Below are positions 2,409 to 5,610 of a DNA stretch of 6,008 nt, piece after piece. Position numbers and translations under genes: made by a program. The DNA lies in contig DAOVMD010000209.1 in the NCBI GenBank assembly GCA_030630935.1, forward strand, positions 1 to 6,008, in the 5' to 3' direction. The notes under the pieces are model-generated. The model saw only the letters and a list, made by a program, of their open reading frames with translations. It searched no databases and had not been told where the DNA came from. This stretch comes from Candidatus Mcinerneyibacteriota bacterium (GTDB taxonomy: Bacteria > AUK180 > JAQVHJ01). Numbering within the stretch: position 1 is the stretch's first letter; the number at the start of each line of letters is the position of its first letter.

Positions 2409-3119
2409 TCATTTCTCACTCGCCTCTTTATTCTTTCCGAATTTATACTTCAGCAATTCGTTAATTGCTTTAAAGATCACAAAAGGATTCCCGCCTGTTT
2501 GTTCACCCTTTAATCTTGGATAGTGATTTACTCCAATCTCAATAAAATTGAATTCACCGTCTTTTAGTTTCAATAATATTTCCGCAGAAGCAAAAGCACC
2601 ACGTGAATGTATTTTAATTCCATCAAAAATACTGCGATGAAATAATTTGAATGCGCAATCAATATCACGAACCTTTAAACCACAGGTAATCCTGAGAACT
2701 AAATTCCAAAGATTTGCATTGAAGATCCTGATAAAATTATCCTGCCTTTTTATTCTATAACCAATTATATAATCGAAATCATCTATCTTCTCAAGGAACT
2801 GTATTATCTCATTTAAATTAAACTGCAAATCCCCGTCAGAGAAAAAGATTAGATCATACTTAGCATTCTCAAATCCCGAAGTTAAAGCAGCACCATAACC
2901 CTGGTTTTCGTCATGATTAATTAACCGGATATTTGAATTGCCCTTCATTATCCCCTCAACTATATCACGTGTCCTATCCGAACTACCATCATTTACAATT
3001 ATAATCTCCCAATTATCTGCATATTCCTTCAGAACTTTCTCCGATTGTGTTATGAGCTCGGAAACATTATCTTCTTCATTATAGCACGGAAAGAAAAAGG
3101 AGATGTTATATTTTTTCAT
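2409..3119 (-). CDS. GT2 glycosyltransferase, dolichol/polyprenyl-phosphate sugar synthase type
   Basis: This 236-residue GT-A fold enzyme probably transfers a sugar from a nucleotide donor (often GDP-mannose or UDP-glucose in this family) to a polyprenyl phosphate at the cytoplasmic membrane face. Visible motifs are FFPCYNEEDN (9-18), VNDGSSDRT (42-50), NQGYGAAL (72-79), the metal-binding SDGDLQF (94-100, with D95 and D97), GYR at 120-122, RDIDCAFKLF (151-160) and HYPRLKGEQTGG (199-210). Together they match the DPM1/DPG-synthase group of GT2. There is no C-terminal membrane anchor, so it should be soluble or peripheral; the end (GKNKEASEK) is charged. Length is normal for an anchorless member. 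It lies 10 bases after the GT-C gene, whose enzyme class uses polyprenyl-phosphate sugars, so it probably makes that donor. The sugar cannot be told from sequence. An undecaprenyl-phosphate sugar synthase for another pathway is the alternative. Confidence 0.88.
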   Translation of the reverse strand: MKKYNISFFFPCYNEEDNVSELITQSEKVLKEYADNWEIIIVNDGSSDRTRDIVEGIMKGNSNIRLINHDENQGYGAALTSGFENAKYDLIFFSDGDLQFNLNEIIQFLEKIDDFDYIIGYRIKRQDNFIRIFNANLWNLVLRITCGLKVRDIDCAFKLFHRSIFDGIKIHSRGAFASAEILLKLKDGEFNFIEIGVNHYPRLKGEQTGGNPFVIFKAINELLKYKFGKNKEASEK

Positions 3120-3122
3120 TCG

Positions 3123-3130
3123 TCACCCTT
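3123..3130 (-). promoter_or_regulatory. Ribosome binding site of the GT2 gene, touching the upstream stop codon
   Basis: On the minus strand AAGGGTGA begins on the last base of the GT-C gene's TAA stop and ends three bases before the GT2 ATG. It matches much of the Shine-Dalgarno complement (AAGGAGGTGA). A ribosome ending on the first gene would sit on this site, which suggests translational coupling and balanced output of the two enzymes. Confidence 0.7.
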
Positions 3131-5610
3131 TAATAAAAACTTATATACGTAGAAATAGGTTTATTATCTAATGGGGATAACCGACCCTTCCTATAAACAA
3201 TCCCATTCAAAGGATAAGAAGGGATTTTAAATAACCTTCCTATCTTCAGATACTTAATCTTAAGACAATATTGAGTATTCTTAATCTCTTCAAGTGATGG
3301 GGGTTCCTTTTTGAGCGGAACATCGATCATTACACCTATCTTGATATTAAATTGTTTCAAGGTCAAATTAATCTCCGAATCCTCAAGACCATTATCAGAA
3401 GATAAATACTTTGCCACAGAAAAGATATCATTCCTTTCCTCAAATTCAATCGATTTTATTATTTTATTTTTCTTAAGAACTGAATGGAAATAATTACTCC
3501 AATCAGGTGCAAGATCCATATCAATATGCTTAACAGAGAACATAATTACTTCTTCTCTATCTAAAACATCCTGATTAATGATCATATCATTAATTCTAAT
3601 CGCACCATGTTTAATTGGCATCTTATTTATGGTTATTTTATTACCTAGCCAACCTAACCCCACGCTGATAATAAGGAACTCTCCCTTTCTATAAATATTG
3701 GAACACTTAATTCCATAATCGCCGGTTATCCTGAATTTCTCAGAAAAATACTGCTTCAGAATTCTTGTTAGTTTTTTACGATCTACTTTTGGGGAGTAAT
3801 CTATAGATGGGTCTTCATCATAATACAGTTGTACATAAAGTTTTTCAACTGGATCTTTATTAATTAAATCACGACGTGCAAAAAGTTTTAATTTAGAATC
3901 CCTGGAAATTTGATAAGAATTTACCAACTTATAATACTTCGTAAACTCTTCCTTATTTTCCTTGATCTTCTCTAATTTCTCACGTTCCTTCATAGTTGCA
4001 AACTTTGGTCCGGGTGAACCCGTTTTTTTAATTATAAAATCAGATAATAAATAATAATCTTTATAACTTACCGCATAAATCGGTAAACCCCTCCTTTCCA
4101 TCTCCAGCTCAAATAAAGTTTTATTTACTCGCGGTAGATTAAGCAGAAGCTGATACCCAAAATATCTCTCCCCATTAAAACCGTCATAATCAGAGTCATC
4201 AAATTTATTAACTATTTTAATCATATCTTTTATCAACGGTTCAATTGAATAATTCCTTGGTCGCGGCGGGGATGAAGCTAAGAACCCGATTGGAATTCGT
4301 GCTTCCTTAATCCGGATATTTACTTTTGTATAACTGGAAATGAAAAAAGAAACCAGTGCAGCTGCGAAAATTATATATCTAATGATCACCTTATGTTTTT
4401 CCTTTAAATATTCAAGCCAGGTTAAAGATATTATTGCAATGAACGGCAGAATCGGTAAACTAAACCTGAGATCTTTATTCCGTAATAGTGTGAGAAATAA
4501 ATAACCGCTTAATACCCAGAGTAAAATATCTGAATTCTCTCTTTTTATATGCTTTAAATATAAAAATAATCCTACGAAAAAAAGTACAAAAAATAAAATA
4601 TTTACTTGGGTTGATAACCCGACAATATAATATATTATTGAAAATATTGATAATACGGCTGGATCCCCTTCTCCTGCACCGATACTCATGTTCCCTGTAA
4701 ATTTAAGTGGGAGTTTAAAAACATAATAACCATACCATCTAAAAGCAACAGCAATAAAAAATAATATGAAAATATAAAAATTCAATAACTGCTTATAATC
4801 AATTGAATACTCCTTCACCATTCTAATAATCAAATAAATAAATAATCCCGACATCAGGACTGGGATAAAAGTCCATTGCCACTGAAAAAAGAAAATAGCG
4901 ACCATGAAAAATACAAATAGTACATTCCATAAAACAAAAACAAATAATCTCTTTTTATGAATTGCAATAAATTGCTTCCTAATATTATTTAGAATTTTTA
5001 TCAATAATATTACCAAAGGAATAATTATGAAAAATAAAAAAGACCACTTGGTCAGCATCCCGAATCCCGATACAACTCCAAATAAAATTGTGAATTTTAA
5101 ATCTTTAAATCCATCTGACTTTAACCAAAAATAAAAAGCAGCAATCACAAAAACTGTCAGTGTTGAATCAATAAGTGTAATCCTCAATAGGAAATTCCAG
5201 AAAAAGTAAAGCGAAAAAAGAAACACCACCCAAAACCCAAACTCCTCATCCTTAAGTTCCTTCCCTACTAAATATAAAAATATTAATCCTATTAACCCAT
5301 AGAACAAATTCATATATAAAACCGGAACCTGACCAAAACCCGTAATGAATAATAATGGTAATGATGATAAATGATAAAATGGCGGATAATAATCCGATAT
5401 TGAAAGGATATCATAAAGATTAAATGTCTGGAACCTAATTTGATTATAATACCTTAGTATCAGTTGAAGATGCATTCCCTCATCCCATAAAGGATATGCT
5501 GCATGATTCCGAACCCAGATAATAAAATTCGCTACGTGAAATAAAAGTAAAATAATGAAAAGGGCTTTGTAACGGATGTTCTCTTTTTTTAAATAATTTT
5601 TTATATCCAT
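3130..5610 (-). CDS. GT39-like (PMT/ArnT-type GT-C) membrane glycosyltransferase with extra C-terminal domain
   Basis: This 826-residue integral membrane protein probably moves a sugar from a polyprenyl-phosphate carrier to an acceptor on the outer face of the inner membrane. The first ~430 residues hold about 11-13 hydrophobic segments (the first at about 15-35, the last near 408-426). The first external loop has PLWDEGMHL (40-48), with the D43-E44 pair typical of GT39. YYPPFYH (74-80), GFGMLTKWSFL (182-192) and RNKDLRFSLPILPF (377-390) are further family signatures. Residues ~430-580 resemble the soluble C-terminal part of such enzymes (SDFIIKKTGSPGP, then LVNSYQISRDSKLKLFARRD). Residues ~590-826 are an additional hydrophilic, strand-rich region I cannot assign firmly. 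The total is long for the family (commonly 450-600). The gene heads the operon behind a strong promoter; no clear Shine-Dalgarno precedes its ATG. The acceptor (lipid, glycan or protein) is unknown. Confidence 0.85.
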   Translation of the reverse strand: MDIKNYLKKENIRYKALFIILLLFHVANFIIWVRNHAAYPLWDEGMHLQLILRYYNQIRFQTFNLYDILSISDYYPPFYHLSSLPLLFITGFGQVPVLYMNLFYGLIGLIFLYLVGKELKDEEFGFWVVFLFSLYFFWNFLLRITLIDSTLTVFVIAAFYFWLKSDGFKDLKFTILFGVVSGFGMLTKWSFLFFIIIPLVILLIKILNNIRKQFIAIHKKRLFVFVLWNVLFVFFMVAIFFFQWQWTFIPVLMSGLFIYLIIRMVKEYSIDYKQLLNFYIFILFFIAVAFRWYGYYVFKLPLKFTGNMSIGAGEGDPAVLSIFSIIYYIVGLSTQVNILFFVLFFVGLFLYLKHIKRENSDILLWVLSGYLFLTLLRNKDLRFSLPILPFIAIISLTWLEYLKEKHKVIIRYIIFAAALVSFFISSYTKVNIRIKEARIPIGFLASSPPRPRNYSIEPLIKDMIKIVNKFDDSDYDGFNGERYFGYQLLLNLPRVNKTLFELEMERRGLPIYAVSYKDYYLLSDFIIKKTGSPGPKFATMKEREKLEKIKENKEEFTKYYKLVNSYQISRDSKLKLFARRDLINKDPVEKLYVQLYYDEDPSIDYSPKVDRKKLTRILKQYFSEKFRITGDYGIKCSNIYRKGEFLIISVGLGWLGNKITINKMPIKHGAIRINDMIINQDVLDREEVIMFSVKHIDMDLAPDWSNYFHSVLKKNKIIKSIEFEERNDIFSVAKYLSSDNGLEDSEINLTLKQFNIKIGVMIDVPLKKEPPSLEEIKNTQYCLKIKYLKIGRLFKIPSYPLNGIVYRKGRLSPLDNKPISTYISFY

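Follow-up and report, generated by a model that had tools for sequence, protein, structure and literature searches.

A GT-C glycosyltransferase with a divergent LmeA-like C-terminal tail and its counterparts in other bacterial lineages

The locus and the 826-residue protein

The window, by which we mean the whole stretch of 6,008 nucleotides analyzed here from a Candidatus Mcinerneyibacteriota genome, contains on its minus strand an open reading frame (positions 3130-5610) that is open throughout 826 codons and encodes an 826-aa protein. Ten bases downstream begins a GT2 gene (2409-3119, minus strand; ArnC/DPM1-like; Glycos_transf_2, E 6.3e-31). A repeat, an RNase HII family gene and a sensor gene cut by the window edge make up most of the remainder.

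Residues 1-426 (4333-5610, minus strand) form the membrane part of a GT-C glycosyltransferase. The Pfam model PMT_2 (PF13231) covers residues 88-208, scoring 31.4 bits where its cut-off is 26.1, and a hydropathy scan, a crude topology method, predicted at least 11 membrane helices, the final one ending at residue 426. The first outer loop holds the acidic pair D43-E44 (WDEGMH; 5479-5484, minus strand), a candidate catalytic pair by analogy with other GT-C enzymes; its Asp is invariant across the six aligned fusion proteins. Residues 427-581 (3868-4332, minus strand) would be the soluble domain that such enzymes usually carry outside the cytoplasm. As far as residue 574 they are covered by the BLASTP alignment with the closest full-length homologue that carries a tail, from genome G303 (26% identity, E 2.7e-48, residues 17-574). 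The PF13231 match above cut-off, the helices and the acidic motif in an outer loop argue for assigning residues 1-581 to the PMT_2/GT39-like GT-C enzymes.

After the enzyme proper, which ends near residue 580, the protein continues for about 245 additional soluble residues. This tail (residues 582-826; 3133-3867, minus strand) gave no match to any Pfam or NCBIfam model, with Pfam scanned to E 1. All of residues 427-826 lie C-terminal to the final predicted membrane helix and no helix was predicted within the tail. Since a basic loop precedes the last membrane helix, the crude topology method would place these residues on the outer side, the same side as D43-E44. An initial annotation had described an extra C-terminal domain at 3130-3840 on a GT-C enzyme closing near residue 580. 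The homologue alignment stopping at residue 574 agrees with that boundary and the coordinates were correct, with the start better set slightly earlier, at about 3867; every sequence motif that the annotation quoted is present in the reading frame.

The tail also occurs in G001, which belongs to the family of the window's genome but to a different genus. In comparison with the window, the G001 enzyme part (contig C333) is 58% identical and the tail, on a separate contig (C216), is 30% identical. Downstream of the G001 tail lie the same GT2 and then RNase HII genes as in the window. A tail retained at 30% identity in front of matching genes is therefore not a chance extension of the reading frame. 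Judged from these identities, the tail is conserved, yet changing faster than the enzyme part. The phylum is small: seven genomes were examined, the window's own being about 80% complete, and a search of the remaining five did not recover the tail. One weak match in G017 (E 0.0017) was discarded as chance, because it falls in an RNA polymerase beta-subunit gene.

Relationship of the tail to LmeA

The initial annotation had suggested from sequence patterns that the tail resembles DUF2993/LmeA or YpmS-like proteins. For YpmS (DUF2140), scanning the tail with Pfam to E 1 gave no match. The LmeA suggestion gained support through a chain of two profile comparisons. As detailed below, a search with the LmeA domain (PF11209) recovered GT-C enzymes with C-terminal LmeA domains in other genomes. 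When the window and G001 tails were compared with 27 of these fusion tails using hhalign, we obtained a score of 46.3 (E 2e-6 local, 1.4e-7 global) and an alignment colinear over 201 columns. The fusion tails in turn matched stand-alone LmeA with an E value of 2.5e-22. HMMER without filters also aligned residues 613-823 to positions 22-208 of a tail profile, with an E value of 0.0017 over about 35 sequences. The hhalign score climbed as fusion tails joined the target (20.7 with five, 32.7 with 22 and 46.3 with 27), the added tails having been chosen by us for being fusions while the resulting score was still unknown. A direct hhalign comparison of the window tail with stand-alone LmeA gave no signal (P 0.29), so the LmeA assignment hinges on the intermediate fusion tails. 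Overall, the profile comparisons support homology of the window tail to the LmeA domain over the whole domain. Since PF11209 itself does not match, we call the tail LmeA-like, that is, a divergent relative and not a curated member.

Two blocks of the tail can be followed between lineages. The central block INKMPI ... DMDLAPDWSNYFHSVLKKNK (residues 659-715; 3466-3636, minus strand) aligns with the tails of G303, G376 and others. The C-terminal block LKIGRLFKIPSYPLNGIVYRKGRLSPLDNKPISTYISFY (residues 788-826; 3133-3249, minus strand) has equal spacing in G249, G303 and others, as seen by eye in LKIGRLFKIPSYPLNGIVYRKGRLSPLDNKPISTYI of the window, LKIGWLRIPRWLYQGIVEKPFMLSPEPEWPVTTKI of G249 and LAVGPAVIPRAFYRRDTDQEVALTPTGGWPIYTDI of G303, and its Pro797 is invariant across the six aligned fusions. 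The last strand present in other LmeA tails is absent from the window tail, which is the most diverged of the fusion tails.

Mycobacterial LmeA binds phospholipid and is needed to maintain the levels of the GT-C enzyme MptA (PMC7643837). This second property, the rapid change of the tail and the loss of the last strand would all fit a module of LmeA/TULIP ancestry that has given up lipid binding and now serves a structural or docking role, stabilizing the enzyme or binding a partner. Nevertheless, the window tail keeps all of the domain except that strand, and its C-terminal block, which contains IP, is conserved between lineages, so that we consider a purely structural or docking role unlikely and favor a tail that still holds lipid.

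More improbable still is a lineage-specific beta-rich domain with no relation to LmeA beyond an accidental likeness, for example a carbohydrate-binding module such as those of EmbC or GT136. The missing direct match to LmeA speaks for such a domain, as do the unrelated extensions on other long GT-C homologues and fold matches that are weak and mixed. In contrast, the profile score of 46.3 stands well apart from the hhalign controls, namely 150 column shuffles (mean 13.2, maximum 22.3), the reversed sequence (19.7) and 71 unrelated translated frames (at most 19.3), and the similarity is colinear over its 201 columns at the same position in homologous enzymes.

The fold matches come from AlphaFold modeling, a check that the initial annotation had proposed and that was partly informative. 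The full-protein model from a single sequence was useless (pLDDT 40). The tail modeled alone, again from sequence alone, comprised a helix and then long antiparallel strands, with pLDDT 65-85 at about tail residues 11-100 and little confidence beyond approximately the first 100 residues; the predicted first helix spans residues 609-627 (3730-3786, minus strand; pLDDT about 80). Foldseek on this model returned nothing below E 0.05, and no LmeA or LmcA structure was prominent. With VIA-align, the partly confident model ranked first the TULIP protein Der f 7 (Z 5.9, rmsd 4.4, 102 residues), closely followed by the TMEM24 SMP domain (5.5) and by YceB, Mdm12 and SPLUNC1 (5.0), with cystatin and NTF2-like folds scoring about equal to the TULIP proteins. 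LmeA itself contains a TULIP domain (PMC6791001), and the tail model is compatible with a TULIP fold but falls short of demonstrating one.

Fusions in other genomes and their history

The PF11209 search covered 60 and later 386 genomes, and returned ordinary small LmeA proteins plus long frames. Among the latter were GT-C enzymes with a C-terminal LmeA domain at four loci (G041, G097, G303 and G228). In G041 and G097, PMT_2 and LmeA both score above the Pfam cut-off; in several other fusions LmeA falls below it. The phylum of G303 contains many further fusions, mostly near full length and 41-49% identical to that of G303, and a profile search added those of G376, G127, G263, G249 and G345. The fusions of G303, G376, G127, G097, G041, G228, G345 and G463 share with the window protein domain order, size, and homologous enzyme and tail parts. 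Beyond the window's own family (f1), GT-C+LmeA fusions occur in eight families (f7, f37, f79, f89, f119, f200, f246 and f267). The G228 locus (L046, 3513-7915) has a tandem pair of GT-C+LmeA-like fusion genes with a GT2 gene adjoining, a weak Pfam LmeA match being present in the second tail only. The long frames at L023, L030 and L033 were rejected as fusions, as they are ordinary small LmeA genes with a frame incidentally open upstream.

Homologues with and without the tail both exist. With a full-length profile, GT-C matches were obtained in 114 of the 386 genomes and the tail was covered in ten of these; G001, whose tail lies on its separate contig, comes in addition. The tail is therefore not family-wide. 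That it is simply part of the standard GT-C soluble domain has a negligible probability: some tail-less homologues are also long, but most have about 500-600 residues, the long ones end in TPR repeats or unmatched sequence that does not match the tail profile, and stand-alone LmeA, a family in its own right, is related to the fusion tails. A 725-aa protein of G040 and the frames at L085 and L101 were likewise set aside, their extensions being different (unmatched or TPR). The GT-C homologues at L085 and L101 terminate in TPR repeats, indicating several kinds of C-terminal addition in this enzyme family. The tail as a separate neighboring gene, an arrangement that the initial annotation had envisaged, was not encountered: no LmeA gene adjoins the tail-less GT-C genes within the flanks available, which are short for most loci. 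A stand-alone LmeA was not found in the window's own genome at its level of completeness.

When a tree was built with the tail removed, the enzyme parts of the window and G001 proteins clustered with those of f200 (92/83) and were nested among tail-bearing enzymes (87/90). The G041 and G228 enzymes belong to a distant group, which implies repeated gain or loss of the combination. The presence of the tail needs five changes on this tree, at least three of them forced by strongly supported branches, a count made unsure by several long branches and by uneven letter make-up among the rows.

Gene context and proposed function

A GT2 enzyme paired with a GT-C enzyme is a known pattern, in which a polyprenyl-phosphate donor supplies the sugar that is attached on the outer side of the inner membrane (PMC11127046). 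The GT2 gene adjoins the fusion gene in four genomes, the G001, G376 and G127 copies being 50-68% identical, and it is this neighbor that suggests a polyprenyl-phosphate sugar as donor for the window's enzyme. For the G376 copy, ArnC was the best NCBIfam match, far below cut-off. ArnT (GT83), the lipid A aminoarabinose transferase, is likewise a GT-C enzyme paired with a polyprenyl-phosphate-sugar GT2 (ArnC); ArnT is not known to carry an LmeA tail.

In G376, the fusion lies inside a lipopolysaccharide-core operon, together with KdsB, two heptose-kinase homologues, a heptose adenylyltransferase homologue, a ligase-GmhB protein, a heptosyltransferase and an LpxL-type acyltransferase. A single frame of this locus (L104, 10149-11999) joins an O-antigen-ligase-like membrane protein (Wzy_C) to a heptose-bisphosphate phosphatase (GmhB-like) domain. 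G303, G411 and G228 have GT9 genes (heptosyltransferase family) in the neighborhood of their fusions. LpxC was present in 16 of the 17 genomes searched, including the window's own, and LpxL-type enzymes in all 13 searched. Lipid A genes thus accompany the fusion in almost every genome that was checked for them. The GT2 family provides donors for many glycans, and the lipopolysaccharide-core context is that of G376, another genome, and not of the window, which weakens the case for a lipid A-core acceptor.

We favor, at roughly two chances in three, an extracytoplasmic GT-C enzyme whose divergent LmeA (DUF2993)-type tail holds a lipid beside the active site during an ArnT-like transfer. The neighboring GT2 would load a sugar onto polyprenyl phosphate on the cytoplasmic side, and the donor would then be flipped across the membrane. 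The GT-C part, using the Asp of the first outer loop, would add the sugar to a lipid-linked acceptor; judging from the gene context of other genomes, this would most likely be lipid A-core, or else another envelope glycolipid. Outside the inner membrane, the tail would grip the acceptor or carrier by its lipid portion, and thereby keep enzyme and substrate together or hand the product on. The recurrence of the fusion in distant bacterial lineages suggests that the enzyme itself retains its lipid substrate close to the outer face of the membrane.

Mycobacterial LmeA is also comparable in its periplasmic location and in working with a GT-C enzyme whose donor is a polyprenyl-phosphate sugar (PMC7643837). 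It is encoded separately, whereas the putative lipid binder of the window forms the C-terminal end of the enzyme chain, stops shorter and lies beyond the reach of the Pfam model. For MptA and LmeA as separate proteins, mannan elongation was speculated to be coupled to transfer of lipid (PMC7643837); here both parts belong to a single protein. A built-in TULIP lipid-transfer module by which GT-C enzymes of lipopolysaccharide-bearing bacteria pass the glycosylated lipid onward, coupling glycosylation with transfer, is a less probable extension of the lipid-holding role. LmcA (Rv0227c/MSMEG_0317), likened here by description, is also a proposed lipid-binding protein of the MptA step (PMC8972800), but it is encoded apart and folds as an elongated beta-barrel. 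The nearest described analogue is the GT-C enzymes with extra carbohydrate-binding domains: EmbC, AftD and GT136 carry an additional extracytoplasmic C-terminal domain proposed to bind the acceptor (PMC11127046). That domain binds glycan, whereas the window tail belongs to a lipid-binding family.

The initial annotation did not recognize the fusion as one already described. We found no description of a GT-C fusion with LmeA (DUF2993, PF11209 or TULIP) in open-licence literature, and the combination of the two known halves appears to be new; it is not unique to the window, recurring as it does in the eight other family-level lineages. Domain-architecture databases may already list it, since Pfam recognizes both domains in some members. 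So far, the link between LmeA and a GT-C mannosyltransferase comes from mycobacteria only, via mutant phenotypes. The repeated covalent joining of the two domain types in distant lineages gives independent evidence that domains of the LmeA type act on the substrate or product of a GT-C enzyme, provides a single-chain system for testing this relation, and extends LmeA-like domains to lineages missed by the curated model.

The rest of the window was also inspected. At 1-1356 lies a PAS/GAF-like sensor protein that runs off the window edge; its full-length G001 counterpart (803 aa), at the same place, has a histidine-kinase-like end by eye. The RNase HII family gene (1396-2073; PF01351), with a start like MPRIGCDESGKGDYFGGIVVAG, adjoins the GT2 gene in both genera, and its DESGKGDYFGG motif is reminiscent of RNase HIII. 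Between the two genes, positions 2080-2408 are a dispersed repeat whose first approximately 70 bases occur at about 40 places in the window's genome, with other parts found elsewhere again. Since the GT2 and RNase HII genes are almost adjacent in G001, this repeat is an insertion, and with its short palindromes it may be a MITE-like element.
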